Source: Pseudobdellovibrionaceae bacterium (GTDB taxonomy: Bacteria; Bdellovibrionota; Bdellovibrionia; Bdellovibrionales; JAMPXM01). Taken from it: a stretch of 32,037 bases of DNA. Location of the stretch: NCBI GenBank assembly GCA_947462815.1, contig CANHQR010000001.1, forward strand, positions 1 to 32,037, read 5' to 3'. The notes beneath the pieces are model-generated. The model saw only the letters and a program-made list of their open reading frames with translations, was not told the DNA's origin and made no database searches. Of this stretch, positions 8,535-26,078 are shown piece after piece. The translations under genes were made by a program, and so were the position numbers. How positions within the stretch are numbered: position 1 is the first letter of the stretch; the number at the start of each line of letters is the position of its first letter.

Positions 8535-10178
<1,644 letters not shown>

Positions 10179-10210
10179 TCGCGGATCGCGATTTGCTATG
10201 TGTTCGCAGA

Positions 10211-10240
10211 AGGCCTGGGAGAGATCCCGGGCCTTTTTTA
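10211..10240 (+). terminator. Terminator after groEL
   Basis: A 10-bp stem with one G-T wobble (10211-10220 with 10225-10234), loop GAGA, then a T run. It lies 32 bases after the groEL stop. Confidence 0.88.
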
Positions 10241-10389
10241 TCGACGTCAACCGTAAGGCTAAAGAAAGTGATCGAAACCTGCGTGTCTTCATCTCGATGC
10301 GACTATACAGGTTACATGGCTTCGCCGTGCTGTTTGCGGAGAGCCACGGAGCTGATAGTCCGACGATCGTGGAACGCCCAGGAGGAAAA

Positions 10390-10773
10390 ATGAAAACCGT
10401 GATTCTATCTCTCAGCCTTTTGTGGGGTTCACAGGCGATCGGGGCCGAAAGCCTTTACTGCAACTTCACTGAGCCATTCATTAAAATTACTTTCGATGGA
10501 TCGACCAAAAACATCACAAAGGTCAGTCCTGAGGATTTGAATGAGGAAACCGGAAATTTCGACCCGCAAAATCTTGGACCGGGAGTCTTGGTTCGCCTGG
10601 GTGAGCCGGATGCTTCTCCGCCCGCCTATCAGCTGCGAGATCAGCAAGGCACAGCGATCTTGAGGCTGGTGTTCGATGGTCAGGGCTCAGATGGAATGTC
10701 GGACAAAACCTACCCGATCTCCGCTGAATATATGGGCTTCAGCGGATTGATGGGAGGCTGCCATACGGACTAG
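10390..10773 (+). CDS. Small exported hypothetical protein
   Basis: A 127-residue protein. The start at 10390 is preceded by a strong GGAGG and begins a clear signal peptide (MKTVILSLSLLWGSQAIGAE, cleavage after IGA); longer in-frame starts upstream would bury it. The mature protein starts SLYCNFTEPFIKITFDGSTKNITKVSPEDL and ends MGGCHTD, so two cysteines lie near its ends and could form a disulfide. The alternating pattern suggests a small beta-rich periplasmic domain. Such short YCxFTEPF-type proteins occur in many proteobacteria without known function. It is followed by a terminator at 10871-10899. Separate from groESL, which is terminated upstream. Confidence 0.7.
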   Translation: MKTVILSLSLLWGSQAIGAESLYCNFTEPFIKITFDGSTKNITKVSPEDLNEETGNFDPQNLGPGVLVRLGEPDASPPAYQLRDQQGTAILRLVFDGQGSDGMSDKTYPISAEYMGFSGLMGGCHTD

Positions 10774-10870
10774 GCGACTCCCCGGAACCCCTTCCAGATT
10801 GAAGCATCTCTGGGACTGACGACGGCTTAAGTGGCATCATCGACAGCGACTTTGGACTCTGTCCGATGAG

Positions 10871-10899
10871 AGGCGACCTTTTGAAGGTCGCCTTTTTTC
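10871..10899 (+). terminator. Terminator after the small exported protein
   Basis: A perfect 10-bp stem (10871-10880 with 10884-10893), a 3-base loop and a run of T. It lies about 100 bases after the stop at 10773. The orientation of the T-tract shows it works on the plus strand. Confidence 0.85.
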
Positions 10900-10976
10900 T
10901 TGGGTTATTGCCTTCAAGGGCCTTCGCAAAGCCTTCGAGTCGAACTGCCCACTAGGCTCACATCTAAGACTGCCAT

Positions 10977-12692
10977 CTAAAACTGATAGATGATGCCGGC
11001 GGTCGCGGAGATGTGGCGCTGGGAGATGCTGGTCGCGGGCTCAGTACGATTTCCAGAACCCGAAAGGCTCGAGGAGTAGAGCGCGAATTCAAGTTGAGAT
11101 CGAAGAATCAAGTTCATGGCGAGGCGACGATCGACGAAGAATGAGAATTCGTTGATCGTGTTGCTGGAGGAGTCTCCGCTCCGAATCGGTGATTCTGTAA
11201 GTTTTGTCAGGAAGAGCATGCTGAGGTCGCCGCCGATCGCCCAGAGTCGCAGGCGTTCGCTGGGATCAGACGCTTGATTCGCAAAAGTGCCGAGAGGGAA
11301 ATAGATACCAACTCCGGTGAGGACACCGTTGTAGTTCACCGTTGTGAGGCCTTGTGGAGTCGAGTCATCTACGTACATGCGATAGTAACTGAGGCCGCCG
11401 CGGAACTGAAACTTCGGACCGAAGAAGTCATTTCGCATGAGAAAGTTGTAGGCCATCGAGATCGAATACTTGTTGAGCGCGTGGTTGAGTGTGGAAGGGC
11501 TCGCGCCGGCACGTGGATTCGAGGTGGACATGATGCCTTGAGTGACCTCGGCCTGGACTGTCCAATTCGGATTCAACCAAAGTTCGCCGTCGACCTCGAG
11601 CAATGGGTAGAAGTCGGACTTCGCCTCCAGCGCGCCCACGCCCGTCAGATTCATGCCGCCCTTGTACATGCCGAGACCCGCTTTGACGCCGACCTGGCCG
11701 AAACTGGGCTCACGGATTGGCAGCCATTCTTCAGCTTGCGAGCCAAATGCAACACCGTGATCTGGTCGGTCTTGGAGGGAACCCTCGTCAGTTCCACTGC
11801 TGAGTGTCTGATCAGTTCCATACTCAACTGCATTGAGGCCCGCGATCTTGTTGAGTCGGCGAATTGCGCCGCGTTCTTTCTCGGCGGTCACGATGGCAAA
11901 ACTCAAAGTGTCGTCGACCTTGAGAACTCGAATTCGGCCGAGGATCTCCTTCTCGGTTGAGATGAGGAAACCAAATTTTGGGTGACGAGTGAGAGAGATA
12001 ACTTGGACAACGGCAAGATCTTGATTGAGTTGTACGCCGTCGACACGACCGAGATTGAGGGTGACTCGATTGCCTTGGCGACTGAGTATCAAACCATCGT
12101 AAGGAATTTTTCGAATCAGGCGTTGATACAGTTGCCCGACCTGATTCTTGACTTCAGCAATCTCGAAACGATTGAGATCTTTCACCTGCTCTTGGAGGAG
12201 CACTCGGCCATCTGACTTCATGATGAGGCTAAGGCGAATGGAAAGTCCGGTGGGACCCTTCGTGAGTGAGGGTAGGATCACGGCATCCACGGGAATCGGC
12301 GCCAGCAGCTGCTGAGTGAGTGTTGGATTGTCTTCGAGCTCAACAGGAGCCTTGGGGAGCGAAACCAACCCCGTGTCAGCGTACTCCCACCGATGCGAGG
12401 TCTTGAGCAAGCCCACGAGGTGAGACTCAACAGGTCTGACGAAGATTCCATCGAGGTTGTCGGCGCCGGGCAATACAGAAATCTTCCGAATGCTAATGAA
12501 GTCATCGCTGGGAGATGTGAATACCGCGCCCTGCTCGACGCGTGGTGATTGGACCGAGGTCGAGGGCTCGGAATTTTGAGCGCTGGCGAGCTGGACAAAG
12601 GTCAGCATGGCAAACGCCGTCAGAAACGTAGACCAACCGCATCGGCGTGTCGGATTCGTCAATGTGCGAAAGGTGCATACGTGTTGGAACAT
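10977..12692 (-). CDS. Outer-membrane protein with periplasmic N-domain and C-terminal beta-barrel
   Basis: A 571-residue exported protein. ATG at 12692 is preferred over the GTG at 12704 because GGTGAGG sits 6 bases upstream of it. The signal peptide ends ASA-Q at about residue 38. Residues about 40-270 form a soluble region with GLILSRQGNRVTLNLGRVDGVQLNQDLAVVQVI, faintly recalling FlgT-type C-domains (inference only). Residues about 320-571 show alternating amphipathic strands (for example SISMAYNFLMRNDFFGPKFQFRGGLSYYRMYV) and end in IIYQF, a C-terminal aromatic residue as recognised by the Bam machinery. It is divergent from another probable outer-membrane protein. The start codon lies in a hairpin that shows the ribosome-binding site in its loop. 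Function unknown. Confidence 0.65.
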   Translation of the reverse strand: MFQHVCTFRTLTNPTRRCGWSTFLTAFAMLTFVQLASAQNSEPSTSVQSPRVEQGAVFTSPSDDFISIRKISVLPGADNLDGIFVRPVESHLVGLLKTSHRWEYADTGLVSLPKAPVELEDNPTLTQQLLAPIPVDAVILPSLTKGPTGLSIRLSLIMKSDGRVLLQEQVKDLNRFEIAEVKNQVGQLYQRLIRKIPYDGLILSRQGNRVTLNLGRVDGVQLNQDLAVVQVISLTRHPKFGFLISTEKEILGRIRVLKVDDTLSFAIVTAEKERGAIRRLNKIAGLNAVEYGTDQTLSSGTDEGSLQDRPDHGVAFGSQAEEWLPIREPSFGQVGVKAGLGMYKGGMNLTGVGALEAKSDFYPLLEVDGELWLNPNWTVQAEVTQGIMSTSNPRAGASPSTLNHALNKYSISMAYNFLMRNDFFGPKFQFRGGLSYYRMYVDDSTPQGLTTVNYNGVLTGVGIYFPLGTFANQASDPSERLRLWAIGGDLSMLFLTKLTESPIRSGDSSSNTINEFSFFVDRRLAMNLILRSQLEFALYSSSLSGSGNRTEPATSISQRHISATAGIIYQF

Positions 12693-12713
12693 GTGAAGCC
12701 TCACCCTTCACAT
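12691..12713 (-). promoter_or_regulatory. Hairpin at the ribosome-binding site of the outer-membrane protein gene
   Basis: In the mRNA sense, ATGTGAAG (12713-12706) pairs perfectly with CTTCACAT (12698-12691). The 7-base loop GGTGAGG is the ribosome-binding sequence, and the first two bases of the start codon are in the stem. This could control translation. As DNA it is also an 8-bp palindromic operator candidate. Confidence 0.45.
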
Positions 12714-12726
12714 TGTGCCGCGCGTG

Positions 12727-12757
12727 CTTCGGGTTCACAAGTGAGTTTGAACCGAAG
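12727..12757. repeat. Inverted repeat in the divergent promoter region
   Basis: CTTCGGGTTCA (12727-12737) faces TGAACCGAAG (12748-12757), complementary apart from one bulged G, with a 10-base spacer. It sits midway between the two divergent outer-membrane protein genes and could be a regulator site. No T-tract follows on either strand. Confidence 0.4.
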
Positions 12758-12836
12758 GTCGGGAGGCGAGTGGGTGGAAACACAAACCGGACCCAAGGCC
12801 GTCGAGTTTGAAGGAGGTCTAGCCGAAACGAAGAGT

Positions 12837-13991
12837 ATGCAGTTCGACCCACGCCCATTCAAACTCGAGCTTTGGAAAAATCGTGCCCAACTGCAATCGG
12901 GCCGAAGCAAGTTTTCTTCGATTTTCGCTTCGCTCGCGGCCTTGTCGAGCTTGTGTTTCCAAATTGAAAATGCCCACGCGCAGATGGATCCGAGTTCAGC
13001 GCTCCTGCTTTCTCCGCCGGCGCAAGTTGCTCCTCGACCGACTCCTAACGAGCGCCGTGGCGAGAGCGGCCGATATCAAGTTCGGCCCACGCCAAGCGCT
13101 GGAAATCGTCGTCCTGATCCAGTGAGCGCCATCAATCCGAGTCCAACGCCCCTAGAGAATGTTGACGGCGTTGCGAATGTGAAGCCCAGCACGGCCCCAG
13201 CTGTTTCGCCGAATGCTTCGGGTGACTCTCCTCATGAGAAGACGCCGCCTGGAGCGCCCGGAAGTGCTGAGAATTCGGCTGCGGTTGAGCGCATGGTCAC
13301 AGCCTCGAAGGTCTTAGAAATGTCATTTTCTCCGGGATACTTTTACCTCGATTCGAAAAGTGACTCGGCTTATCGAAACTTTCAGGCGGCCAGTCCGGCC
13401 GTTCAGTTGGACGCGGCGGTGTGGCTCAGTGATCACTTGGCTGTGGAGCTCGAGATGGGCACGAGCCTAGCTGCTTCGGTGAGCGATGGTTTGAATCGCC
13501 AGGTCGCCTTGAACCGAAATGACTTGGCAATTGGCATTCAACGCCGTCGAGTCGATCGCGGTGGCGAGTTTCTCTATGGGTTGGGTTTCTTTGAAAGCCA
13601 ACTTCGTGTCTCAGCTGATGCTCAACGTCGGCCTCGATTGCGCACGTCGGGAGTGAAGCTGAATCTCGAGGGCTTGTTTCGCTTGCCTGCAGGATTCTGG
13701 GGCTTGGGAGTGGACTTCGCGCCGAAGGTCAGCCATGCCGAGGAGGCCACGGGCATTCAATTGAAGTCGGGAGGCAACGTAGACTCGCACGCGTTAGCCT
13801 TCTCGCTGCGCCGAGTTTGGACCTTGGATGAAACGAGTTCCGTCTTTCTGAAGCTCACGCACTCCGTAGAACGGCATTTGTTTTCGGGGGACTCTAGTCT
13901 CGCTGACCCGGTCACGGGTTCAACTCTCACGAACGTCGGGGTCACGCAGAGCACGACTCTCATCCAGTTCGGCATTGGCTGGAGTAACTGA
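12837..13991 (+). CDS. Probable outer-membrane beta-barrel protein with Pro-rich linker
   Basis: 384 residues when started at ATG 12837, the first start that places a hydrophobic export segment near the N-terminus (FSSIFASLAALSSLCFQIENAHA-Q, about residues 27-49). The Shine-Dalgarno is odd: a perfect AAGGAGG lies about 20 bases upstream, too far for normal use, with only GAAGAG close by. Residues about 50-155 are rich in Pro, Ser, Ala and Asn (a flexible linker). From about 165 onward, alternating hydrophobic strands (MSFSPGYFYLDSKSDSAY, AAVWLSDHLAVELEMG, LIQFGIGWSN) suggest a small barrel of 8-10 strands. The last residue is Asn, not the usual aromatic one. Function unknown. A response regulator starts 37 bases downstream and may be co-transcribed. 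Confidence 0.6.
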   Translation: MQFDPRPFKLELWKNRAQLQSGRSKFSSIFASLAALSSLCFQIENAHAQMDPSSALLLSPPAQVAPRPTPNERRGESGRYQVRPTPSAGNRRPDPVSAINPSPTPLENVDGVANVKPSTAPAVSPNASGDSPHEKTPPGAPGSAENSAAVERMVTASKVLEMSFSPGYFYLDSKSDSAYRNFQAASPAVQLDAAVWLSDHLAVELEMGTSLAASVSDGLNRQVALNRNDLAIGIQRRRVDRGGEFLYGLGFFESQLRVSADAQRRPRLRTSGVKLNLEGLFRLPAGFWGLGVDFAPKVSHAEEATGIQLKSGGNVDSHALAFSLRRVWTLDETSSVFLKLTHSVERHLFSGDSSLADPVTGSTLTNVGVTQSTTLIQFGIGWSN

Positions 13992-14028
13992 GTTTTAGGC
14001 CTCCCTAAATCTAGAATATCCTAGAGAC

Positions 14029-14412
14029 ATGATTCGCCTTCTTATCGTTGATGATGCGCCCTTCATTCGAGAGCTCGTTCAGTTGAATGTGCGCGATCAA
14101 GGGATCAGCGTCGTGGCTGAGGCTGAAGACGGTGCAGAGGCGCTCATGTTCGCACGTACACTCCAGCCGGATGTCATTCTCATGGACTTGGTCATGCCGA
14201 AGATGAACGGTATCGAAGCCACAGAAGCCATTCTCGCGGAGTATCCCCAAACTCGGGTGATTGCCTTCTCAACGGCCGATCACGAGTCGATTGTCGCGCG
14301 TGCGATCCAAGCGGGATGTTGTGATTTTTTATCGAAGCCATTCACGTCGGAGGACCTTGTGAAGGCCATTCAGCGTGCAATGGCGGATCGTCGTGAGAGC
14401 AAGGAGGCTTAA
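14029..14412 (+). CDS. CheY-like single-domain response regulator
   Basis: A 127-residue receiver domain without an output domain. Key residues are in place: acidic pocket Asp8/Asp9 (LLIVDDAPF), phosphoacceptor Asp53 (VILMDLVMPKMNG), switch Thr82 (AFSTAD) and Lys103 (FLSKPF). It would be phosphorylated by a histidine kinase not in this window and act by protein contact, like CheY. The stop codon overlaps the ATG of the next gene (TAATG), so the two are translationally coupled. A TAGAAT box at 14012-14017 just upstream could be a -10 element, but no good -35 is visible. Whether it drives motility, gene control or pilus behaviour cannot be told. Confidence 0.9.
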   Translation: MIRLLIVDDAPFIRELVQLNVRDQGISVVAEAEDGAEALMFARTLQPDVILMDLVMPKMNGIEATEAILAEYPQTRVIAFSTADHESIVARAIQAGCCDFLSKPFTSEDLVKAIQRAMADRRESKEA

Positions 14413-14693
14413 TGGGTGAGTTGAGCTTTGTCGTGAAGAGCTTTGTTTTTTCCGCGCTGTTGATTTCAGCCCTTCAGTTCAGAGTCGGAGGATCGACTTT
14501 GGAGGCAACATCTGAGGCCTGGATTCGCGAGGCACCGCTTCCGCGTCTCCTTCAAGAGGTGGCGAAGGGAGCTGTGCAATTGAGCAAAGAAGTTTGGACG
14601 ACAGTACGAGGTCAATTTGAAGAGGCCTCAGATCAAGTTTCGGATGAGGCCGCCTCGCGCTTGAAGGGTCGCCGAGAAGAGTCTCGGCGTTAG
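14412..14693 (+). CDS. Small membrane-anchored protein coupled to the response regulator
   Basis: A 93-residue protein whose ATG shares one base with the preceding stop (TAATG). Residues about 6-24 (FVVKSFVFSALLISALQF) form one transmembrane helix or uncleaved signal anchor. The rest is a charged helical tail (LLQEVAKGAVQLSKEVW, FEEASDQVSDEAASRLKGRREESRR). No family recognised. The tight coupling suggests a partner of the receiver protein, for example a membrane target; this is inference. Confidence 0.6.
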   Translation: MGELSFVVKSFVFSALLISALQFRVGGSTLEATSEAWIREAPLPRLLQEVAKGAVQLSKEVWTTVRGQFEEASDQVSDEAASRLKGRREESRR

Positions 14694-14712: not shown

Positions 14713-15012
14713 TTAGCGAGTCACTTCGCGCCCGTTGCTTTGTGCGCGGCTTGTGCCAGAGCGTCCATCTGCAATTTCGACGGCTTGAGTGTGATTTCCG
14801 GAGGCCGCCTTGGCGCAGTTGAGACCGTCCCTCTTGGCTGCGTGATAGGCCTGACCGGCTCGTGTGAAACGATCGTTAGGGTCTTCGCTGGCGGTCTGGC
14901 GAACGCGGGCTTGTGCCAAGCTCGATGAGAGGGCGATTGCGGCGATGGTCATAGCAAAAATGAACTTCGCTCGGTTCGACTTGATCGTGTGAAGAGTGCC
15001 TGCGTGTTTCAT
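14713..15012 (-). CDS. Small exported hypothetical protein
   Basis: 99 codons when started at 15012, where GGAGG lies 6-7 bases upstream (GGAGGAAAAGT-ATG). The signal peptide covers about residues 15-35 (AKFIFAMTIAAIALSSSLAQA, cleavage after AQA). The mature part of about 63 residues is polar (EDPNDRFTRAGQAYHAAKRDGLNCAKAASGNH) with one cysteine. No family recognised. It lies beyond the terminator of the hit-like gene and is convergent with the small membrane protein gene, 19 bases away, so it is a separate unit near the hit locus. Confidence 0.55.
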   Translation of the reverse strand: MKHAGTLHTIKSNRAKFIFAMTIAAIALSSSLAQARVRQTASEDPNDRFTRAGQAYHAAKRDGLNCAKAASGNHTQAVEIADGRSGTSRAQSNGREVTR

Positions 15013-15246: not shown

Positions 15247-15283
15247 CAAACAAAAAGGCGCGCGGGGATTTCCCCGTGCACCT
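15247..15283 (-). terminator. Terminator of the pilus motor/hit operon
   Basis: On the minus strand AGGTGCACGGGGA (15283-15271) pairs with TCCCCGCGCGCCT (15268-15256) across a two-base loop, with one wobble and one mismatch, followed by TTTTTGTTTG. It lies about 43 bases past the hit-like gene. Confidence 0.82.
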
Positions 15284-15306
15284 TTAATGGAGAAGAAGCA
15301 GGTTGT

Positions 15307-15321
15307 GTCTCAAAATGAGAC
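15307..15321. repeat. 15-base palindrome GTCTCAAAATGAGAC, copy 1
   Basis: Lies 4 bases downstream of the stop of the hit-like gene. The identical 15 bases form the core of the terminator downstream of cpaC (20887-20901). Here there is no T-tract, so it is not itself a terminator. Confidence 0.5.
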
Positions 15322-15325
15322 GGGA

Positions 15326-15643
15326 TCAGCGAGCTGTATCGTCGCCGCCGTTCGTATTTCTCTGCATGACATCCGTCGTTGAGCCTGGAACCAGACGGCT
15401 CTCATATCCCAGCTTGGGAGAGTTACGGTTCTCACAGTTGCGGCAGGGTATCCCGTGATCGCTCGCGTAGGGAACGCCGTACTCAGTCGCCGAGCGATCG
15501 GGAATCTCCGTCATGTTGGGATCCGCAGATGCGAGTCCAACGAGTCCGAGCGCCATGACCAAGCCCGTCGACAGGACCAACTTTCGCAAATTGGCTGTCA
15601 TGCCCGGGCTTCCACTCTGCCTTTGGGGTGACTTGATTTCCAT
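15326..15643 (-). CDS. Small secreted protein in the position of Bdellovibrio Bd0108 (hit locus)
   Basis: A 105-residue protein. A signal peptide spans about residues 19-41 (LRKLVLSTGLVMALGLVGLASA-D). The mature part of about 64 residues is polar, with a CxxC pair (GIPCRNCENRN) and a Gly/Asp-rich end. GAGGTAGGT directly precedes the ATG. It follows the YD-repeat gene by 68 bases and is the last gene of the Tad operon. In B. bacteriovorus the hit locus encodes Bd0108, a secreted protein of about 100 residues described as unique to Bdellovibrio, next to the YD-repeat protein Bd0109; mutations in bd0108 alter pilus extrusion and allow prey-independent growth. The call rests on size, export signal and gene order, not on remembered sequence. 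CxxC could bind metal or form a disulfide. Confidence 0.65.
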   Translation of the reverse strand: MEIKSPQRQSGSPGMTANLRKLVLSTGLVMALGLVGLASADPNMTEIPDRSATEYGVPYASDHGIPCRNCENRNSPKLGYESRLVPGSTTDVMQRNTNGGDDTAR

Positions 15644-15711
15644 ACCTACCTCACTCCTTCTCTTGCGACCTGAGTCGCAGATCTGTTTCTTAAAATTTAC
15701 GTGTCCTCGCC

Positions 15712-17469
15712 TCAGAGATTTAGCTCTGAGGTCGCGGGCGCGATAATATCCAACAAGTTATTGAAGGTGCTCGCGACCTGGAGAGCCACCGTAGGTCCAC
15801 CATCGGGGCTCACAACATTGCGAATTTCACCGTTCGACTTATAGGTGACCATGATCGTGCCCACTTTGGGGCGCGTGATCTGGGCGGGTCGGCCTGACTT
15901 TTCCTCATACTTGATCTGCACTTCCTTCTTAGCGTGGTCGATAATGGTCGCTATTCTGCCTCGAGCATCGTAGGTCAGGCGAACAGACTGACCGTCACTG
16001 TTTTGGGCCGCGATGAGATTGCCTTTGCCATCGTAGGAGAAGGTTGTATCGCGCTTTGCGGCCGCCTTTCCCTTGGCGTCGAAGTATTCGGTGACGACGC
16101 GAGCGACTTTGTTGTGTTGCTTGTTGTATTCAAACGACATCTTCGAGTTCGCACTCGATTTCACCTTGATGAGACCGTTGTCGTAGTATTCGAAGGCCGT
16201 GGTGTTGGATCCCTTTTTCACTGAGGTCGGCCGTCCGAACTCGGGATGATAAGTGATGTCGACGGTATCGCTCTGCGATTTATTCATAACTCGCGAAAGA
16301 TATCGACGGCCATCAGATCGCTTTTTCAGCCAGAACTCGAAGCGAGCTTTGTTCACGACCTCAGCGCCACATTTTTTTTCAGCCTCTGACCAAAAGTGAT
16401 CCTGCGGTGTGGTTTTGCTGGTTTCGTAATTATAGGTTTCCTTACAGACCTCTTTCCCGTCTGAGCGGTCTTGGAAAGACGTGACCCAGTCTTTTTGCTT
16501 GTTGTAGGTGAGGGCTTTAAAAGTTCGATCGGGATAAGTAACTTTTGTCAGATTGTGATTGTCGTCGTACTCGAAAGTGTACGTATTAGGTTGACCCTTC
16601 GGGTTCTTCCACATGTTTTTGACTTCGACGAGATCCTCGCCTTGAAACTTGTAGGAAGCCTTTACGCCGCCGGGCCCTGTGATTTCCTTGACCCGCTTTG
16701 TCGGATAGAACTGGAAGCTCAGCTTTTTACCCGTATTGTCCGCGACTTCGCGAAGCACTGCGCCTGAATAAGTTAAGCGGAGATAGTTGCCGTTCTTATC
16801 AAAGATGGCCGACAGCCTCCCTTGAGCATCAAAGCGTTGCGAGGAGCCGTCACTGAGGGCACGAGTGTAGGTCGTTCCATCAAACGTGATCGAATCGATT
16901 TGCAGAGAATCAGATGTGTAGGTGACACCCTTTTGAACTTGGGGCTCGGGTAGGTTGATCAAGCGGGCTCGGCGGGCTCGATACTCGGCATTGTCCTCGA
17001 GTTCGGCTTCCATATTCGCAATCACGTCCTTGCTCGCGGTCGGATTCGATTTTTTGTATTCGGCGATGATCTTGTTGATCAACTCTGCCTTTGCTGAATC
17101 TGCCGTTTTAGTTTCGGGTTTGAAGTAGATCTCTTGTCCTGCTCCGCATTCGGTGAGCTTGATGGTGCCTTCGGGCGTTTTCTCGAGCGTTGTTTCGAAA
17201 TCTGAGCACCAGCCGAAGCCAAAGATTCCATTGAACACGGATCGACTGTTGTAGGTTCTTTGAACCTTGAGTGGGTAGCCCGTTGTCGGGAGCTGAATGT
17301 CGAGCCACGACTCCGTATAGTTCGCGTTCTTCATGTCGACCGTGGCGTGAGAAGAGATCGAGTGAAACAACGTCAGACTTACAACGATCGCTCGTGTCGC
17401 AGAACGCATCCAGGCTGGAGCGAAAGCTCCTGGTGTCGTCATTCGCTGAGAATTCTCAAGTGTCTTCAT
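15712..17469 (-). CDS. Secreted YD/RHS-repeat protein, Bd0109-like (hit locus)
   Basis: A 585-residue exported protein. The start at 17469 is chosen for the GGGAG upstream and the signal peptide (TRAIVVSLTLFHSISSHA-T, ending about residue 43). After it comes the RHS-type N-terminal block YTESWLDIQLPTTGYPLKVQRTYNSRSVFNGIFGFGWCSDF. Several YD-type repeats follow (FDAQGRLSAIFDKNGNYLRLTY, YDDNHNLTKVTYPD, YDGKGNLIAAQNSDGQ, YDARGRIATIID). YD repeats form beta-strand shells and are linked to carbohydrate binding. There is no C-terminal toxin or RHS core-end motif, so it is not an RHS toxin. It lies between the TadB-like gene and the hit-like gene. B. bacteriovorus Bd0109 is reported to have YD repeats, to bind Bd0108 and to resist deletion; the same role is inferred here. 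Confidence 0.82.
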   Translation of the reverse strand: MKTLENSQRMTTPGAFAPAWMRSATRAIVVSLTLFHSISSHATVDMKNANYTESWLDIQLPTTGYPLKVQRTYNSRSVFNGIFGFGWCSDFETTLEKTPEGTIKLTECGAGQEIYFKPETKTADSAKAELINKIIAEYKKSNPTASKDVIANMEAELEDNAEYRARRARLINLPEPQVQKGVTYTSDSLQIDSITFDGTTYTRALSDGSSQRFDAQGRLSAIFDKNGNYLRLTYSGAVLREVADNTGKKLSFQFYPTKRVKEITGPGGVKASYKFQGEDLVEVKNMWKNPKGQPNTYTFEYDDNHNLTKVTYPDRTFKALTYNKQKDWVTSFQDRSDGKEVCKETYNYETSKTTPQDHFWSEAEKKCGAEVVNKARFEFWLKKRSDGRRYLSRVMNKSQSDTVDITYHPEFGRPTSVKKGSNTTAFEYYDNGLIKVKSSANSKMSFEYNKQHNKVARVVTEYFDAKGKAAAKRDTTFSYDGKGNLIAAQNSDGQSVRLTYDARGRIATIIDHAKKEVQIKYEEKSGRPAQITRPKVGTIMVTYKSNGEIRNVVSPDGGPTVALQVASTFNNLLDIIAPATSELNL

Positions 17470-17602: not shown

Positions 17603-18481
17603 TCACACCTTAATTCTAACGATCTTTCGCATGGCGATACCACCCACAATTTGCAAGGTGAACATCACGAATAGAGCGATCAAGCCCAGAGTCGTGGTGA
17701 ACAGCACCTTCACGTAGTTGGGATCTACCATGTAAAACAGGACCAATAAGCCGAGCGGCACGAGGGTGATAATCGTACCCTGCATCATTCCCTGCGCGGT
17801 CATAGCTTCGATTTTCTTCTCGATCTTCTGTCGTTCGCGGACCACATAGACGATGGTCTGGAAAGTTTCAGCCATGTTACCGCCAGTTTCTTGGAGAATA
17901 TTGACGGCGGTAACGAACATCTGCACGTCCTGACGAGGAATGCGATTCGCTAGATTGGTCAAAGCTTCAGCGAGCGAAGCTCCGACTCGAATCTCTGCCA
18001 AGACCAGACCAAACTCCTGACTGATGGGATTCGGCATATTCTGTTGGACGCGCTCCATACACTGCTGTGGAGAAAGTCCGGCTTTGATCCCGTTCGCCAT
18101 CATGGTGAGGCCATCAACCATCTGGTCGACGAAACGATTGCATCGACGATTCCAAAGCGACTCCATGATGATTCTTGGAATTGACCACATCACGACGGTC
18201 ACCACACAGGCCATGAAAACGCCCAAACCGAAATGGGGCCACAAAAGCAGGAACAGAAGAAACCCGAGGCCAAAGCTCGAGAGCAGCATCATCCAAGTGA
18301 CTTTAGTTCGATTGGTGTCGACAAACATCAGCGCCATGAGGCGAAGAACCTCTTCGCGCTGACCGAGAGAGCGTTTGTGAAGCCAAGCCAAGGCTCGATC
18401 TGCCCACATGTAGCTGATGGTGAAGGCGCTTCCGCCGCAAACGAGGAACATCATCCAATCCGACTTTAAGATCCCCATCAT
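17603..18481 (-). CDS. Tad pilus inner-membrane platform protein (TadB/TadC type, T2SSF domain)
   Basis: A 292-residue polytopic protein that anchors the pilus assembly machine and is worked by the CpaF-type ATPase. Hydrophobic segments lie at about 12-27, 65-98, 235-255 and 262-282. The T2SSF domain spans about 110-235 (CNRFVDQMVDGLTMMANGIKAGLSPQQCMERV, VLAEIRVGASLAEALTNLANRIPRQDVQMFVTAVNILQETGGNMAETFQ). Its ATG overlaps the stop of the CpaE-CpaF gene (ATGA), so the two are coupled. Tad systems normally have two such proteins, TadB and TadC; only this one is in the window. The sequence alone does not tell me which of the two it is. Confidence 0.88.
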   Translation of the reverse strand: MMGILKSDWMMFLVCGGSAFTISYMWADRALAWLHKRSLGQREEVLRLMALMFVDTNRTKVTWMMLLSSFGLGFLLFLLLWPHFGLGVFMACVVTVVMWSIPRIIMESLWNRRCNRFVDQMVDGLTMMANGIKAGLSPQQCMERVQQNMPNPISQEFGLVLAEIRVGASLAEALTNLANRIPRQDVQMFVTAVNILQETGGNMAETFQTIVYVVRERQKIEKKIEAMTAQGMMQGTIITLVPLGLLVLFYMVDPNYVKVLFTTTLGLIALFVMFTLQIVGGIAMRKIVRIKV

Positions 18482-20781
18482 GAGCGACCTCCCTGGGGCT
18501 TCGAGGGCGATCCGCGCTGGGCCTCTGTGCCTGTGGGGCGTGTGGTGGCCGATGAGGGTGTGGTTGAGGATGTCGCGGGTTTCGAGCCAGCCGATCCCGG
18601 AGTGGCCGGTCCAGATGGCGCATTGGCTCCTGCCGTGCCCATGTTAGGGCTATTGGCGAAGAGTTGTTTGGGAATAATGAGTCCGCGCTTTTCGAACTTT
18701 TCGATGCACTTCGGGATGAGGCCCGTCGCTTGGAACTCGCCGACGATTTTTCGATTCTTATCGAAGCCCTTTTCCACGAAGCGGAAGACCTCTTGCTGGG
18801 TTACAACTTCACCCTGCATGCCCTGAACCTCGGCGATGCTGATGAGTTTTCGTGAGCCATCGCTGAGGCGTTGAATCTGAACGATGATATTGACGGCGTT
18901 AGAAATCTGCTCGCGGATCGCGCGGGCAGGAAGCTCCATGCCGGCCATCATGCAAAGAGTCTCGAGACGGCCGACGGCCTCCTTTGGATTGTTGGCGTGC
19001 ACGGTTGTCATGGAGCCATCGTGACCCGTCGACATCGCCTGCAACATATCGAGGGCGGCGCCATCTCGACATTCGCCGACCACAATTCGATCAGGCCGCA
19101 TACGCAACGAGTTCTTGACGAGATCGCGGATGGTGACGGCGCCTTCGCCTTCCATGTTTGCTGGGCGAGTTTCAAGTCGAACCACATGCTCCTGTTTGAG
19201 TTGAAGTTCGGCCGCATCCTCGATTGTGACGATCCTCTCGTTTGAGGGAATAAACCCGGACAAAGTATTCAGAAGTGTTGTCTTACCGGAACCCGTTCCC
19301 CCGGAGATGATCACGTTCATCTTGTTGGCAACGCAGATTCGTAAGAACTCCATCATGTTGGCTGTCGAGGCATTCCACTCGTTCACATAAGTTTCAGGAC
19401 TCACCGGTTTTTTACGAAACTTACGAATCGTCACGGCGGGGCCGTCGATCGCAAGTGGCTCGATCACGGCATTAACCCGCGAGCCGTCTTTCAGGCGCGC
19501 ATCGACATAAGGAACCGACTCGTTGATCTGTCGTCCGAGAGGAGCGACGATTCGTTCAATGACTTTTCGTAAATGAAAGTTCGAGGTGAAGTGCACCGGA
19601 CTGAGTTGCACCAAGCCGTTCTTTTCAATGTAGATCTTCTCGTGACCGCAAACCATGATTTCCGTCACGCTGGGGTCCGAGAGAAGGTCTTCTAAAGGTC
19701 CAAGGCCGAGGGCCTCATCCAGAACCTCTTTGATGATTTGCGCGCGCTCATCGCGACCCAGACCCGAGGATTCGCGATCGACGATACTGGCAATGACGGT
19801 ATTGGTCTTTTTGCGAAGTTCGGCTTCTTTGTCGGGGTCGCCTTGGGTATCCGCAACACCCTTGGTGAGATCCATCGCCTTCAATAATTCGCTATGAACG
19901 GTGAGTTTAAGGGCGGTGCGCGGATCGACGTTCTTCGGAATCTTTGCGCGGGGTCCGCCGGAAGAAGCCACCTCAACTTTGGGCGCGTCTTTGGCGAACT
20001 TCAACTGTGGCTTCGACGAGGATTTCAACTGTTGCAAAACGCCGCCGGTCAGCCGACGGACAACTTCAAAATGGGCCGTCGAGATCGCGCTCTTCGGTGC
20101 GCTGGCAACGAAGGGTGTGGACCGAGCCACGCTCCCCAGTACGGTCGCGTCATCTTGAGGAATGACACCGAGTGGAGTCTTACGCAGAGTTTGGCCGATT
20201 GCGGCCGGCTGGAGCCCAGCGGGTCCCGCTTTGTTGACGATGATTTGCATCACGTCCGTGGGCAGATTTGATGCCAAGAGGTCGCCCATCATTCGCATCG
20301 TTTGATTGATCGCTAGAGCCTCGGGAGCCGTAACAAGCAAGAGCACTGTGCTTTTATCAATGCCCATCATTTGCATCGCTTGAAGCTGATTGCCGAGATC
20401 GAGAATGATGAAGCGATAGACGTTGCTGAGGCCGTCGAGTTGTTTCGCTAAGGTCTCGGGATTGACGTTGAGATTGTCATTGCGGTCTCGAACTGCGGCG
20501 ATGAAATGCAGGCCCGATGCGTGAGGTGTGACAATAGAACCGAGAGATTGGGGTGTGATGGAGCCTGCAAAGTTCGTCAGATCGCTCAGTGTGCGGACAT
20601 CGCGAAAGCCGAGCAAAAAGTTTTGATCGCCGCAGCTTTGACCATCGAGATCAATGAGCAAAGTCGGCTGTTTCATTTCCATATTGAAGGCGATGGCAAG
20701 GTTGGCCGCGAAAACGGATTTACCCATTCCGCCTTTGCCGCCGGACACGCCAATAACAAAGCAACCAGGATTAACAGCCAT
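18478..20781 (-). CDS. CpaE-CpaF fusion: MinD/ParA-like localisation ATPase joined to Tad secretion ATPase
   Basis: A single 767-residue polypeptide. Residues 1-250 are a CpaE/TadZ-like MinD-family domain with deviant Walker [10 protein letters not shown] (14-22), LLIDLDGQ (41-48) and RFIILDLG (123-130). A linker (250-320) leads to a complete CpaF/TadA hexameric ATPase. Its Walker A is GGTGSGKTT (494-502), the Walker B region is [11 protein letters not shown] (564-574) and the His box is [11 protein letters not shown] (586-596). The tail (about 700-767) is Ser/Thr/Pro/Gly-rich. TadZ/CpaE normally positions the pilus at the pole and CpaF powers assembly, as separate proteins. The frame runs unbroken through both domains. 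The ATG has GGGAG almost touching it, and a sigma28-like -10 box ends about 10 bases before it, so the mRNA leader is very short or absent. Confidence 0.92.
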
Positions 20782-20881: not shown

Positions 20882-20906
20882 AAAGCGTCTCAAAATGAGA
20901 CGCTTT
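20882..20906 (-). terminator. Terminator after cpaC, splitting the Tad locus
   Basis: A perfect 11-bp stem (20906-20896 with 20892-20882) with a 3-base loop. It is followed on the minus strand by TTCTT continuing the T run of the stem (TTTTTCTT). It lies 26 bases after the cpaC stop and before the cpaEF promoter. Its core equals the palindrome at 15307-15321. Confidence 0.85.
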
Positions 20907-20932: not shown

Positions 20933-22600
20933 TCAATCTCGGAAGTTAAACTTCTTCTTCACTTTCTCAGAGCCCTCAGAAGCACTGACCTTAATGACTG
21001 GCGTCACAAACACAACAAATTGACTCTGCTTCCTCGTGAACTGCTTGGAGGCGTAGAGAGAGATGATGGGGTTCTTAACGTTCTCAGGAAGTTTGTTGTA
21101 GCCCGTGTTTGAAACGTTACGAATCAAACCGCCGATCGCGGCGCTTTGCCGGCTGCGTACGGTGACGCGGGTGTTGACGTTGCTTTCCGAGGTAATGGGA
21201 CCACTCGCACTCATATCGACAAGTTGGGCCAATGAGAAGTCCATCGCCATTTCAATCGCGTCGGAACGGGGGTTGTTGATCTTCGCACCGATCTTTGTAC
21301 GGATCCCAATCTTCGCATCGCGAGAGACCGCCGAGTTGTTGGGTCCGAATGAAGTGAAGGGAATAGCGGTTTGGTTTAAAATCACACCTTCAGACCCATC
21401 TGTGACCAGCAGAGTGGAGCTTTCCAGAATACGGGCGTGACCGTGTTCCTTGGCCCAATTGAGTTTGGGCAAGAGGTTACTGATCACCGCCGTGATCGAG
21501 CTCACCATACCTCCTTGGGCTTGGGAGTTATTGCTGATGGTGATGTTCGATGCATCATCCTTCAACTCGGGGGTGAATTGAAATCGGAAAGCCTTGCTGT
21601 AGCTCTTGGACAGTTCGACGAAGTGCACGACAATTTGAATGATTTTTGAGGGCTCCTTGGGAGGAGCCTCGCGAATCTTCAGGAGGTCGAGGACAAAGGT
21701 ACGACGAATCTGTGTGAAGCGACCGCCATCGGCACCCACATCCTTCACGAGATCCGGCAAATACATTTCCGCAATCTGCTTCGCGCGTTTCGCCTCTTGC
21801 TCGTTGTCGACAGTTCCTTCAAGAACGAACTTGTCGTTCACGGGGTAGACGTTCACGTCGGGCAGGTTGATGTGTTCCAGGATGAGCTTGGCAATCTTTC
21901 GTTGGGCCATGGGGCTCAGGTTCACGAGACTGGCGGCACGGGGTCCAAACTGATCGACGACCGCTGTAATTCGCGCGAGGTCCCGGGGCAAAAGCACCTG
22001 ACCATCAACAACCACTTTGTTGTTCACGATTTTGATCGTGATCCCCTCGATGTCGGACAGGAGCGCACGAATTTCTCGAGACACTTTCGTTAGGTCGCTT
22101 TCCCGTACATCCAACATGAAATCGTAGATACGTCGATCATTGGCGTCGTAGATGGTCAGCGTCGCGTAACCCACCTTGTTAGGTTGGAACAAAAGAATAC
22201 CCTGTTCCTTGTCGACCAAAACCTTGGTGACCTTCTTGTAGTCGCCCTTGAATTTGGCGTCGGGCGGAAAGAAGGGAAGCTTCTCTTGTTGTTCAAGTCC
22301 GATAAACAGCGATAACGGCTTTTGACGTTTGGGATCGATGGGGTCGACTTCCAGGTCGGCTTTCTCCTCGGCATCGGGAGCCGGTGTCGAATCCAAAGGT
22401 GGGGGAGTCGAGTTCGGTGCGGCGTCGGCCGTTGCGCTCGAACCCGAAGTTGAAGCGGACGCCGTTGCTGACGCTGAATCCTTCGAAGCCTCTTGAGCCA
22501 CCGCGCCGGTGTTCATCGAACTGAGTGCCAACATCAAGAAGGTAAGTCCCGCGAATCGCAACGCGCGATGGAAGCTGAGAATTGTATTTTGCGTCTTCAT
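20933..22600 (-). CDS. cpaC: Tad pilus outer-membrane secretin (CpaC/RcpA)
   Basis: A 555-residue protein forming the outer-membrane channel for the pilus. The signal peptide ends AVA-Q at residue 35 and is followed by a Ser/Ala/Pro-rich stretch to about 80. The pilus/secretin N-terminal domain (about 95-165, KVLVDKEQGILLFQPNKVGYATLTIYDANDRRIYDFMLDVRE) precedes a BON-like domain (GITIKIVNNKVVVDGQVLLPRDLARI). The secretin core (about 380-540) includes GVILNQTAIPFTSFG, VNTRVTVRSRQSAAIGGLIRN and SQFVVFVTPVI. GAGGGGG precedes the ATG. It lies 51 bases after cpaB and is the last gene of the pilin operon, with a terminator right after it. Confidence 0.92.
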   Translation of the reverse strand: MKTQNTILSFHRALRFAGLTFLMLALSSMNTGAVAQEASKDSASATASASTSGSSATADAAPNSTPPPLDSTPAPDAEEKADLEVDPIDPKRQKPLSLFIGLEQQEKLPFFPPDAKFKGDYKKVTKVLVDKEQGILLFQPNKVGYATLTIYDANDRRIYDFMLDVRESDLTKVSREIRALLSDIEGITIKIVNNKVVVDGQVLLPRDLARITAVVDQFGPRAASLVNLSPMAQRKIAKLILEHINLPDVNVYPVNDKFVLEGTVDNEQEAKRAKQIAEMYLPDLVKDVGADGGRFTQIRRTFVLDLLKIREAPPKEPSKIIQIVVHFVELSKSYSKAFRFQFTPELKDDASNITISNNSQAQGGMVSSITAVISNLLPKLNWAKEHGHARILESSTLLVTDGSEGVILNQTAIPFTSFGPNNSAVSRDAKIGIRTKIGAKINNPRSDAIEMAMDFSLAQLVDMSASGPITSESNVNTRVTVRSRQSAAIGGLIRNVSNTGYNKLPENVKNPIISLYASKQFTRKQSQFVVFVTPVIKVSASEGSEKVKKKFNFRD

Positions 22601-22651: not shown

Positions 22652-23536
22652 TCAGAACTCCTGATAGTTGCCTCGGCCTCGGCTCGGTGCAGCCGCCGGC
22701 GGCGGTGGCGGCTGAGCTGGAGCCTGTGTGGGCGGCGCTTGCGCTGGCGCCCGGAGCAGCGCGGGCTTTCCAAGCAGATCCTCGACGACCGTCGTGCGTA
22801 GCGCCTCCTCGTTGCGATCGGTTGGATGGCGAAGAACCGTAAACAGCGAGCCTGGTGAAGTGGATAAGATATAGACGAGCTGTTGGGCCTCTTGGGGTTT
22901 CACTTCAACTGTGATGCTTGTGAAGTTGACTGTCGCACTCAGGTTTACACGCATGATGCTCTTGCCATTGGCATCGAGCTCGAGTCGTCGCGGGATTTTG
23001 TTGACGACGTTCACGCCGGTTGCCAAGACCACGACGTCTTGGAGAATTGTTCGGATCTCGCGGCGCTGCTCAGCGGCCTTTCCGTAGTCGACAGCGGCGA
23101 CGATGTCGACTCGATCGCCTGGGCGAAGGAGTCGCGAAACGCCACGCATGTCATCGATCGGCATGGTGATCGCCCGTTTGCCCGGTGAGATTTCAGAAGA
23201 CAAACCTGTATCGGGTCCAGGAAGCAGGAGCTTAGTTTGTAGAACTTGTTCACCCTTCTTAATGGGTGCGGCGGCCACTTGCCCGATGGCGGTATCGGCT
23301 TCAAGGATGGCATCAGGTTGGACGAAGTCCTTTGGAAGTTCTTTGATCTCTAACATCGATTCATCGATGTCGGCCATTTCTTCAATGTCTTTAGCGGCCA
23401 CGACCACTCGTTGCACGGTTCCGTACTTTGCGGCGAGCTGGTCTTTGTGGCTCTCGGACCACGAATACAGCATGAACATCGCAAACAGTGCGACCATGAC
23501 CGAGATCCATAATGTGCGCGTCTCGTTGTTGCCCAT
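22652..23536 (-). CDS. cpaB: Tad pilus assembly protein CpaB/RcpC
   Basis: A 294-residue protein with one N-terminal membrane anchor (LWISVMVALFAMFMLYSW, about 9-26). A SAF domain follows (VVVAAKDIEEMADIDESMLEIKELPKDFVQPDAI, about 45-105) and then the RcpC domain (PGKRAITMPIDDMRGVSRLLRPGDRVDIVAAVDYG, about 120-260). The last 35 residues are Pro/Ala-rich. CpaB works in the periplasm beside the secretin. The start at 23536 has AGGGGA upstream. It begins 14 bases after the preceding TadE-like gene, so all these genes are co-transcribed. Confidence 0.9.
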   Translation of the reverse strand: MGNNETRTLWISVMVALFAMFMLYSWSESHKDQLAAKYGTVQRVVVAAKDIEEMADIDESMLEIKELPKDFVQPDAILEADTAIGQVAAAPIKKGEQVLQTKLLLPGPDTGLSSEISPGKRAITMPIDDMRGVSRLLRPGDRVDIVAAVDYGKAAEQRREIRTILQDVVVLATGVNVVNKIPRRLELDANGKSIMRVNLSATVNFTSITVEVKPQEAQQLVYILSTSPGSLFTVLRHPTDRNEEALRTTVVEDLLGKPALLRAPAQAPPTQAPAQPPPPPAAAPSRGRGNYQEF

Positions 23537-23550
23537 GAATACGTTCCCCT

Positions 23551-24078
23551 TTAGTCCCCACACGAGGCGTTGATGCACATCCCGTATTGGGTCTTGACCC
23601 ACACCGGACTCACGCCCACCGTATTGTTCTCAACCCCATCCTGGATTTGCTCGTAGATCAGTTCGTTATGCAGATTGATGTTGTTGCGCGAGCCATCGGG
23701 CTGTAAATCGCCGAATCCCACCCGCAACGAGCGTTCCGTCGCGCGGAAGTCGGTATTGGTTCTTTGGAAGCCTTCTCCGGTCGTACCGTGAATGCGTGTA
23801 CCGACGGATCGATAAGAGAAAAACGATGAGTCGCGGTTGTCGCGGAAGTAAGTCACATTGGATCGATTGCGAAAGGTTTCAAAGGCGTAGTTGCGAGCCG
23901 CGATAGAATTTAGAATGCCGGTATGAATGACGCCGAACATGCCAAATGAATAGGCGAGCAAGATCACAAACACCAAGAGCACGGGAATGGCCTCGATCGT
24001 CGCGAAGCCGCGTCGACTCAAGCGACGACGTCGGTGCGAAGTCTGGATTGAGATGAGAGGTCGACGCGAAGTTGCCAT
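23551..24078 (-). CDS. TadE-like pseudopilin (179-residue class)
   Basis: 175 residues from the ATG at 24078, one base after the upstream stop; an in-frame ATG at 24090 overlapping that gene is possible. A basic leader (SHRRRRLSRRG) is followed by FATIEAIPVLLVFVILLAYSFGMFG, a prepilin-type segment with Glu at +5 from the Gly. It is thus a likely substrate of the CpaA peptidase. The rest (about 130 residues) is polar and Asn/Arg-rich, with two cysteines near the end (GMCINASCGD) that could form a disulfide. It is probably a minor pilin or pilus-base component, like TadE/TadF. Confidence 0.75.
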   Translation of the reverse strand: MATSRRPLISIQTSHRRRRLSRRGFATIEAIPVLLVFVILLAYSFGMFGVIHTGILNSIAARNYAFETFRNRSNVTYFRDNRDSSFFSYRSVGTRIHGTTGEGFQRTNTDFRATERSLRVGFGDLQPDGSRNNINLHNELIYEQIQDGVENNTVGVSPVWVKTQYGMCINASCGD

Positions 24079-24079
24079 C

Positions 24080-24748
24080 TCAACACCCATTATCAGTCAG
24101 TTGGGCCGGCGGCTGCGCCACACCGCTTGCACCGTTATAAACTTGGCCTGCACCTTGCGCTTGCATGCTCAGAATGTTTTGCCAGCGCTGCGTGTTGAAG
24201 TTGTTGTTGCATTCGTCTGTTGTCACTTCGCGACCCAAGAAAGTCTGAATGTTGGCGACGCCCGTGGAGTCGTCATCTTGGGAGTCGCCGAGAAGCGGCA
24301 GATTGAAATCCAGTACGGTGGATTGAAATCTCATACGCGCTCCGATGAAAGTTTCATTGTCGTTCGCGGCATTGTTGTCTTGACCTGAACCCGGATAATC
24401 ATCGTTGTGGCCGCGCAAGGGATCGCCAAAGTCGACTTGGCCGAAGCGAATCCATTGCTTGCTGAGAATTCCGCGCAGGGCGGGATTCATTCGTAGCTCT
24501 TCATATTTTCGACGACCGAGATCGAGTTGCTTGTCGCGATTTTGGTGAGCGGCCCATGAGGCGCGCGCGGCCGAGAAGGTCACATACTGACCCACTTCGA
24601 CCATGGAAAGGGTGAAACAAATGGCAAGAAACACGAGCGAGAGCCCCATGGTCATCATCAGAGCAAATATAAAATCGAGCGTGAGCACGCCGCGCTTTTG
24701 GCGCAGAATGCTCGAGCGTCGATTTTGAGTGCCCCACTGACGTTTCAT
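24080..24748 (-). CDS. TadE-like pseudopilin, larger
   Basis: 222 residues from the ATG at 24748, which has GAGGA 6-7 bases upstream; a GTG at 24760 overlapping the previous stop is the alternative. The leader SSILRQKRG is followed by VLTLDFIFALMMTMGLSLVFLAICFTL. Aspartate replaces the usual glutamate at +5. The remaining 165 residues are soluble, with a polar Asp/Asn-rich part (NDDYPGSGQDNNAANDNETF) and two cysteines (TTDECNNNF and the C-terminal DNGC). It belongs with the TadE/F/G group of minor Tad components; the exact counterpart is uncertain. Confidence 0.72.
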   Translation of the reverse strand: MKRQWGTQNRRSSILRQKRGVLTLDFIFALMMTMGLSLVFLAICFTLSMVEVGQYVTFSAARASWAAHQNRDKQLDLGRRKYEELRMNPALRGILSKQWIRFGQVDFGDPLRGHNDDYPGSGQDNNAANDNETFIGARMRFQSTVLDFNLPLLGDSQDDDSTGVANIQTFLGREVTTDECNNNFNTQRWQNILSMQAQGAGQVYNGASGVAQPPAQLTDNGC

Positions 24749-24756
24749 TGGATTCC

Positions 24757-25017
24757 TCACGGTGGTTGAGTGGATTGTCGTCGCGAAAAGTTATTGGGAT
24801 GTGCCGTCTTGCTCGCATTGTGGCGTTGCCAGACACCGTCTTCGATCATTCCTCGAATCGGAGACCAAGGCCCCTGCACGATGTCGCGCATGAAGCCGCG
24901 CTCGGTGGCCCGGTTCGAGAACATAAGGGCAACCGATGTGAACACAATCATCAGCAGCACGGCTTCCATCGTCGCGACGCCGCGCCGGGATCGACGGACT
25001 TGAACCATCAATGCCAT
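24757..25017 (-). CDS. Short TadE/Flp-like pseudopilin
   Basis: 86 residues from ATG 25017, with GGAGG 5 bases upstream. It overlaps the end of cpaA by 10 bases. The leader VQVRRSRRG is followed by VATMEAVLLMIVFTSVALMFSN, a classic prepilin segment with Glu at +5. The tail of about 50 residues is short and basic. It is the third pseudopilin-like protein in a row downstream of the peptidase gene. It could be a minor pilin or a second Flp-type subunit. Confidence 0.7.
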   Translation of the reverse strand: MALMVQVRRSRRGVATMEAVLLMIVFTSVALMFSNRATERGFMRDIVQGPWSPIRGMIEDGVWQRHNASKTAHPNNFSRRQSTQPP

Positions 25018-25496
25018 AGTCCCTCCAGCGTGGCATGTGTGAGCCATCCGAGGAGCAGAGGTACGGTAAAGGGAAGTTTGTGCAGCTCAAGGCCTGCAGA
25101 GCTCCGAGTGGCCGCCATTTGCGATAGATTTTGTGTGAGCCGCTTGAACTCGCCGCGTGCAAGGACCTGGTAGATTCCAAAGATTGCGGCCCAAACCATC
25201 CCGTAGGCCACGGTCCAAAAAACGCCGTTCCAACCGATCAAGAGACCCGCAGCAGCCATCAGCTTGAGATCTCCTCCCCCGACAATTTTCAAAATGACGA
25301 GGGGAAGCAGGAGTGCAAAGCCCGAAAAGAATCCCACCAAGCCGAAGTGCCAAAAGTCTTGGCGCTGAACGGCAACCGCGAGGATCAGGGCTAAGGTTCC
25401 GATGATCATAAAACTGCGATTGGAGAACTTACGCGAGCGCAAGTCCTCCAAAACGGCCCACCCAAATGTTGTGGTGGCGGCCAAAGACAGAATCAT
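25008..25496 (-). CDS. cpaA: Prepilin peptidase of the Tad system (CpaA/TadV, A24 family)
   Basis: A 162-residue polytopic aspartyl protease that cleaves leader peptides of Flp pilin and TadE-like proteins at the inner membrane. The two catalytic aspartates are visible: Asp18 in LEDLRSRKFSN and Asp76 in IVGGGDLKL (the GxGD motif). At least four hydrophobic segments are present. It lacks the N-terminal methyltransferase domain of PilD, as usual for TadV. The start at 25496 overlaps the upstream stop (ATGA); GGAAAG lies upstream. The C-terminus extends about 45 residues beyond the last GxGD-side helices. Confidence 0.9.
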   Translation of the reverse strand: MILSLAATTTFGWAVLEDLRSRKFSNRSFMIIGTLALILAVAVQRQDFWHFGLVGFFSGFALLLPLVILKIVGGGDLKLMAAAGLLIGWNGVFWTVAYGMVWAAIFGIYQVLARGEFKRLTQNLSQMAATRSSAGLELHKLPFTVPLLLGWLTHATLEGLWH

Positions 25497-25720
25497 GGCG
25501 TGAGCTTTCCGGTTGGTGCCTGTGTCGGCGGTGCCGCCCAACGATTCTTCGTGCCCGGACCGTTGTTGAAGTCACGACCCGTATCGAGATGTCGTTCGAT
25601 CCTCGCACCCAAGCGTGGACCTGAATTCTGGAACACCTTCATCGGACCGTTTTCGCCGAAGAAAGCGCCGCCCAAAATCAGCGCAAACATGCTGAGTAGC
25701 AGGGTGACTTCCAATGTCAT
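25493..25720 (-). CDS. Small single-span membrane protein of the Tad operon
   Basis: 75 residues. A hydrophobic segment at the very N-terminus (TLEVTLLLSMFALILGGAFFG) follows Met directly. It resembles a processed pilin, with Glu at residue 3, but lacks a leader, so it probably stays as an N-terminal anchor. The tail is polar with Pro/Gly (NNGPGTKNRWAAPPTQAPTG). GAGG lies 8 bases before the ATG. It is coupled to cpaA by an ATGA overlap. No family recognised. Confidence 0.6.
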   Translation of the reverse strand: MTLEVTLLLSMFALILGGAFFGENGPMKVFQNSGPRLGARIERHLDTGRDFNNGPGTKNRWAAPPTQAPTGKLTP

Positions 25721-26016: not shown

Positions 26017-26047
26017 ATCTCCCCCTCCGGTTTTGAGTTCCTCAATC

Positions 26048-26078
26048 ACTTATCGGATTATTGGGGACGCGAGTTGAG
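26048..26078 (-). promoter_or_regulatory. Sigma28-like promoter of the pilin operon
   Basis: On the minus strand CTCAACTC (26078-26071), 14 bases, then CCGATAAGT (26056-26048). The second box reads TCCGATAA, one base from the sigma28 -10 GCCGATAA. Initiation near 26043 gives a leader of about 27 bases with the strong GGAGGGGG. Boxes and spacing match those before cpaEF. Confidence 0.55.

Follow-up and report, generated by a model that had tools for sequence, protein, structure and literature searches.

A hit locus counterpart at the downstream end of a Tad pilus operon in the Bdellovibrionota, with a probable small secreted protein gene within its published sRNA

The hit locus, which has been tied to the change from predatory to prey-independent growth, is the main genetic handle on the need of Bdellovibrio for prey; its Bd0108 protein has been regarded as specific to Bdellovibrio, and the sRNA beside it as non-coding. 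The stretch of DNA analyzed here (32,037 nt, "the window") comes from a 3.43-Mb assembly in 107 contigs, placed in the same order as Bdellovibrio but in another family, and almost certainly carries the same locus by descent and gene order. At this locus a Tad pilus operon ends in a secreted YD-repeat protein, orthologous to Bd0109, and a small secreted protein (S1) at the Bd0108 position, followed by a second small secreted protein (S2) whose positional counterpart in B. bacteriovorus HD100 is an open reading frame inside the published sRNA. The overall reading favored here, to which a probability of about 0.6 is given, is that these three proteins together form a periplasmic accessory to the Tad machine, orthologous to the hit locus, with S1 and S2 acting as ligands of the YD protein.

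The first-pass annotation had described a secreted YD protein followed by a secreted protein of about 100 residues downstream of Tad genes, and this arrangement was confirmed, with both reading frames present in the ORF list of the window on the minus strand and the Tad genes upstream on the same strand. The YD protein (15712–17469) has 585 aa when read from the ATG at 17469, and S1 (15326–15643) has 105 aa with no Pfam or NCBIfam match, or 91 aa with a cleaner signal peptide from an alternative start at 15601. S2 (14713–15012, minus strand) has 99 aa and a GGAGG motif 7 nt before its ATG. Upstream of the YD gene, all on the minus strand, lie a TadB/C-type T2SSF membrane protein (17603–18481), the only gene of this type in the cluster; a 767-aa TadZ-TadA fusion of a ParA/CpaE-like N-terminus with a Tad ATPase (18478–20781); a CpaC/RcpA-type secretin (20933–22600); and CpaB/RcpC (22652–23602). 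Beyond these are three TadE-like ORFs (23551–24090, 24080–24760, and 24757–25047), the first two without a Pfam family, a prepilin-peptidase-like ORF with a GGGDLK motif (25008–25541), and a Flp-like ORF (25816–26049). These last five were named by inspection and are conserved by tblastn, the TadE-like ORFs also in order. Convergent with the hit genes, on the plus strand, are a CheY-like single-domain response regulator (14029–14412) and a small protein (14412–14693) homologous to the 86-aa HD100 ORF taken as Bd0103; this pair and S2 are parts of the same conserved block as the YD and S1 genes. The adjoining block at 8544–14000, in which groEL and two barrel-like outer membrane ORFs accompany CheY beside the hit locus, is kept in many genomes of the order. 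Neither the window nor the HD100 locus had an Rfam match, and a search of viral contigs with the TadA protein returned no relative.

The orthology of the YD protein with Bd0109 is supported by similarity over the full length and by a best HD100 match to Bd0109, which was the sole YD match in that genome when three candidates were scored (1e-179, ∼50% identity). The window protein has Pfam matches to RHS_repeat (7.6e-20) and DUF6531 (2.1e-10), and a match to it was found in 347 of the 369 genomes of the phylum, with each of its four cysteines kept in 91% of homologs. In a tree of 45 YD proteins, several forks of which are weakly supported, it groups with its own family. YD-like proteins of Roseovarius, Paraburkholderia, and Variovorax were also considered as relatives, and were judged generic as neither a Tad gene match nor an S1-like ORF was found nearby.

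Gene order around the Tad cluster, the second line of comparison proposed by the first-pass annotation, points in the same direction. Genome G133 is B. bacteriovorus HD100, and the published hit-locus primers (PMC3818213) match its locus L023, in which the genes from CheY through the Tad cluster are arranged as in the window. Across the phylum, 39 of 40 long loci have TadB/C and TadZ-TadA upstream of the YD gene, separated from it by a near-constant distance, the exception being L050, the second YD copy of B. exovorus, and CpaC, CpaB, and TadE-like genes follow in most loci that reach far enough. The spacing between the TadB/C-type gene and the fusion seen in the window also recurs through the phylum, and CheY and the Bd0103-like gene keep their position in many genomes. 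In the window, too, the Tad operon ends downstream in a Bd0109 ortholog, with a small secreted gene directly after it. Of 116 loci examined, 114 have an S1-type small secreted gene immediately behind YD (108 found by an automatic rule and six by reading frames, with signal peptides called by a simple rule), and with YD matches in so many genomes the arrangement is not due to chance. As these genes are so regularly present, mostly with an even number of cysteines, the YD-S1 pair looks like a Tad accessory of the whole phylum and not a Bdellovibrio-specific switch.

Two groundwater MAGs named as Deltaproteobacteria, and labeled Myxococcota by the tree tool (L212 and L213), also have Tad genes, a YD gene, and a cysteine-bearing small secreted ORF right after it. 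With the pair spread over the phylum and in these two MAGs, its presence alone cannot diagnose a growth switch or predation. The source genome of the window does encode HMG-CoA reductase and tryptophan dioxygenase, and DXR was not detected in it while the mevalonate pathway is present; a mevalonate pathway without DXR and tryptophan dioxygenase are traits enriched in predators (PMC4646340), so that its gene content is compatible with predation but is no proof of it. Two genomes of one family (L056 in G203 and L067 in G202) keep the Tad genes and YD but have lost both S1 and S2 from the interval between YD and CheY, a double loss in nature, which indicates that the two peptides are not always needed.

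For B. exovorus, A11Q_2207/2208 was the hit locus preferred by Prehna et al. (PMC4267844). In genome G174, taken as strain JSS partly from its two YD copies, the Tad-linked copy (L049) has the order CheY, Bd0103-like, S2, S1, YD, Tad; its S1 has no cysteines and keeps GEDPN, whilst no Tad gene was found near the other copy (L050). By gene order, therefore, L049 appears to be the hit-locus counterpart in this species.

Whether S1 is a Bd0108 homolog, as had been proposed, is a claim that stands in part. Its position, its C-x-x-C, and a weak similarity to a model built from the HD100 family (15.5 bits, against 14.5 for the best of 9,700 shuffled decoys) agree with the proposal, but neither S1 nor any other protein of its genome matched NCBIfam NF053838, the curated Bd0108 model (cut-off 40 bits), and a profile-profile comparison with Bd0108 was not significant (E 0.34). 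The combination that the first-pass annotation named as refuting its reading was not seen: the YD protein resembles Bd0109 much more than it does other RHS proteins, and S1 has its weak similarity to the Bd0108-position family plus the C-x-x-C. The curated model itself exceeds its cut-off in only 21 of 369 genomes, all of genus Bdellovibrio. Because both of these comparisons fail and 15.5 bits is weak, S1 is, as far as sequence can tell, a Bd0108-position protein with Bd0108-like architecture and not a member of the curated family.

That architecture consists of a signal peptide, a length of about 100 aa, and a C-x-x-C (C-R-N-C in the window) within a chain of low hydrophobicity, with a DPN motif at the predicted mature N-terminus. 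Bd0108 is itself disordered, with a C56–C59 disulfide, and its conserved segment 32–40 lies in the Bd0109-binding region (PMC4267844); DPN falls within this segment. At least two mature cysteines are present in 98 of 108 S1 proteins, an even, non-zero number in 91 of 108, and C-x-x-C in 54 of 108 (6.3 in shuffles), while DPN is enriched as well (32/109 vs. 2.8). S1 sequences diverge strongly between families while the cysteines are kept, and dN/dS is low between close species. In one complete Bdellovibrio genome, a frame shift breaks the gene at the bd0108 position (L024; G134:C1, 90770–91062). Host-independent strains carry such lesions of this gene (PMC11323537), and the genome may perhaps have been sequenced from a host-independent culture.

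Between S1 and S2, a terminator-like hairpin with a T-run is found in 48 of 80 loci (9 of 80 when shuffled), HD100 and the window included; that of the window (15251–15285, minus strand, z −4.7) was missed by a simple consensus terminator scan, and a simple promoter scan around S1 and S2 gave nothing informative. The same interval holds a palindrome, GTCTCA-NNN-TGAGAC (15307–15321 in the window), which is exact in 25 of 115 loci, compared with 0.0 in shuffles, and present with up to two mismatches in 66 of 115, compared with 0.7. Of five genomes tested, four have 20–30 copies each and the fifth, G168, has nine, while a reversed control gave zero; many of the HD100 sites examined lie ∼40–150 nt before start codons. 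The palindrome is a candidate regulatory site or operator. In HD100, the copy at this place (96767–96781) precedes the sRNA end at 96716 by 51 nt. Further copies in the window lie before TadZ-TadA (20887–20901, no mismatches) and near the Flp end (26488–26502, one mismatch), and HD100 has a copy with one mismatch 78 nt before its Flp match; three palindromes at ≤2 mismatches in a stretch like the window are not unusual alone (19 of 100 shuffles).

A non-coding RNA that rises in bd0108 mutants was described at HD100 96455–96716 by Capeness et al. (PMC3818213). Wholly within this interval, on the bd0108 strand, lies the 66-aa S2 ORF (96683–96483), with a strong Shine-Dalgarno-like ribosome site and a signal peptide, and both published RT-PCR primers for the sRNA map inside it. 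Of 69 substitutions in S2 between the members of four close species pairs, 59 fall at third codon positions (p = 4.5e-19, an approximate value as two of the four pairs share a genome), dN/dS is 0–0.25 in nine pairs, and across genera the length changes are in-frame with one cysteine invariant. There is very high confidence, from these substitution patterns, that S2 is a real protein gene in Bdellovibrio, and the RNA published as non-coding would accordingly contain the gene for a small secreted protein. A RefSeq ORF, BD_RS00505, has been reported between Bd0103 and Bd0108 (PMC5941755) and is presumably the same ORF, and a wastewater study described short secreted gene arrays at this place (PMC10469934); among the open-access papers covered, none was found that ties the S2 ORF or BD_RS00505 to the sRNA.

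Exactly one cysteine is present in 82 of 86 S2 proteins chosen, a set selected with a signal-peptide rule and by excluding eight candidates on inspection; this rule is weak alone, as of 113 loci 66 also had such an ORF on the opposite strand, compared with 94. A profile of 17 S2 sequences recovers the HD100 gene at 2.3e-16, the HD100 gene being one of the 17, and misses the S2 of the window, which scores 0.5 bits against the S2 model, with no detectable homology to HD100 S2. Models, profile, and profile-profile comparison were all non-significant, and sequence homology between S2 of the window's family and that of Bdellovibrio was not supported. The link between the two is one of position, signal peptide, and single cysteine only, the window S2 standing after S1 with a signal peptide and exactly one cysteine. 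DPN occurs in S2 of the window's family in 8 of 9 (vs. 0.1). S1 and S2 are alike in DPN (in some), cysteine, and a basic or polar end, with profile E-values of ∼0.1–0.95, and a common origin is not claimed. A lipoprotein reading of S2 was rejected by inspection, as the cysteine lies at a variable distance past the predicted cleavage site and there is no general lipobox. A 59-aa secreted single-cysteine S2-like ORF, unlinked to the hit locus, is present in HD100 at 407439–407618 on the minus strand (L220:2940–3119), with a weak match (E 0.006).

Taken together, the tail of the Tad (type IVb) pilus operon encodes the YD protein and S1, with S2 following after the terminator, and the three would form a periplasmic accessory of the Tad machine that is spread over the Bdellovibrionota. 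The YD protein would most likely be a beta-sheet shell at the pilus base. S1 would be a disordered peptide closed by a C-x-x-C disulfide, which binds YD and restrains its effect on pilus extrusion and retraction, and S2 a second, single-cysteine ligand with its own promoter, made in the absence of S1 or upon a change of growth mode. That S1 and S2 are alternative disordered ligands that tune YD, and through it pilus activity, is put at even odds, and is favored because DPN, from the Bd0108 segment in the Bd0109-binding region, is enriched in S1 and, in the window's family, in S2. Binding of Bd0109 to Bd0108 is published for HD100 only (PMC3818213, PMC4267844); S2 may bind YD, and the locus may switch growth in the source organism. 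A bolder version, which is rather doubtful, would treat S1 (paired cysteines) and S2 (free cysteine) as a periplasmic thiol pair competing for, or coupling on, the YD shell; the hit switch would then be a redox- or competition-gated peptide circuit and the sRNA the mRNA of its third member.

The main rival to this ligand model, unlikely though deserving of weight, is that YD, S1, and S2 chiefly serve the Tad pilus in a structural, adhesive, or cargo role, such as a shell or tip with variable peptides, and that in B. bacteriovorus the growth mode is affected indirectly, through altered pili. The linkage to the Tad operon is fixed, and is also seen in the two groundwater MAGs; Tad flp mutants lose predation and still attach to prey (PMC5430801), diversity of Tad tips has been described in Myxococcus (PMC12075869), and the strong divergence of S1 between families with its cysteines kept would suit variable peptides of this kind. 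Deletion of bd0108, however, alters type IVa piliation as well as growth mode, and Bd0108 binds Bd0109 (PMC3818213, PMC4267844), while the low dN/dS of S1 between close species speaks against fast adaptive change there.

Two other readings fare considerably worse. That the transcript downstream of bd0108 is a regulatory RNA, as published, with an ORF of incidental or secondary importance (a dual-function RNA at most), agrees with its induction in bd0108 mutants (PMC3818213), but is very improbable given the codon-position bias, low dN/dS, in-frame length changes, and invariant cysteine of S2, its ribosome site and signal peptide, the lack of an Rfam match, and the RefSeq ORF in the same interval (PMC5941755). 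The remaining reading, in which YD would be an Rhs toxin and S1 its immunity or cargo peptide, is the least credible of all. The predicted YD structure (pLDDT 85.7) does have the Rhs-like beta-sheet of a continuous YD fold, and some toxin-antitoxin sets are known to pair an RHS gene with a small gene downstream of it (discussed in PMC3818213). The 585-aa protein, however, lacks a toxin tip and ends in a conserved helix, and its match to the NCBI RHS core model is only partial (29.7 bits; cut-off 2000), so that neither the full RHS core nor the variable C-terminal toxin of a polymorphic Rhs toxin was found; moreover, its partner S1 is secreted and not cytoplasmic, and Bd0109 could not be deleted in HD100 (PMC3818213).

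If the accessory model is true, the hit locus would be a Tad accessory found across the phylum, whose third protein was previously studied as an RNA, and what was reported in 2013 as sRNA induction would reflect a secreted peptide being induced in the absence of Bd0108. The Tad-linked locus would also replace A11Q_2207/2208 as the likely hit locus of B. exovorus.

When compared with known systems, the window most resembles the HD100 hit locus (Bd0108, Bd0109, and the Tad genes Bd0110–Bd0119), sharing CheY, the Bd0103-like gene, S2, S1, YD, TadB/C, TadZ-TadA, CpaC, CpaB, and the TadE-like and Flp-like ORFs, and, in detail, a YD protein of about 50% identity, C-x-x-C in S1, the S1-S2 terminator, and the palindrome before S2. 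It differs in an S1 that the Bd0108 model does not recognize, in a longer S2 (99 vs. 66 aa) with DPN, and in a prepilin-peptidase-like gene in the cluster, which was not found near that of HD100. As for the HD100 sRNA and BD_RS00505, published as non-coding and as a hypothetical protein, respectively, the substitution pattern in Bdellovibrio indicates here that they are protein-coding. The continuous YD beta-sheet fold is shared with the Rhs/YD-repeat proteins (T6SS Rhs effectors, teneurins, and Tc BC shells), compared with which the window YD protein is about half the length, with a signal peptide, a conserved C-terminal helix in place of a toxin tip, and TM-scores ≤0.48.
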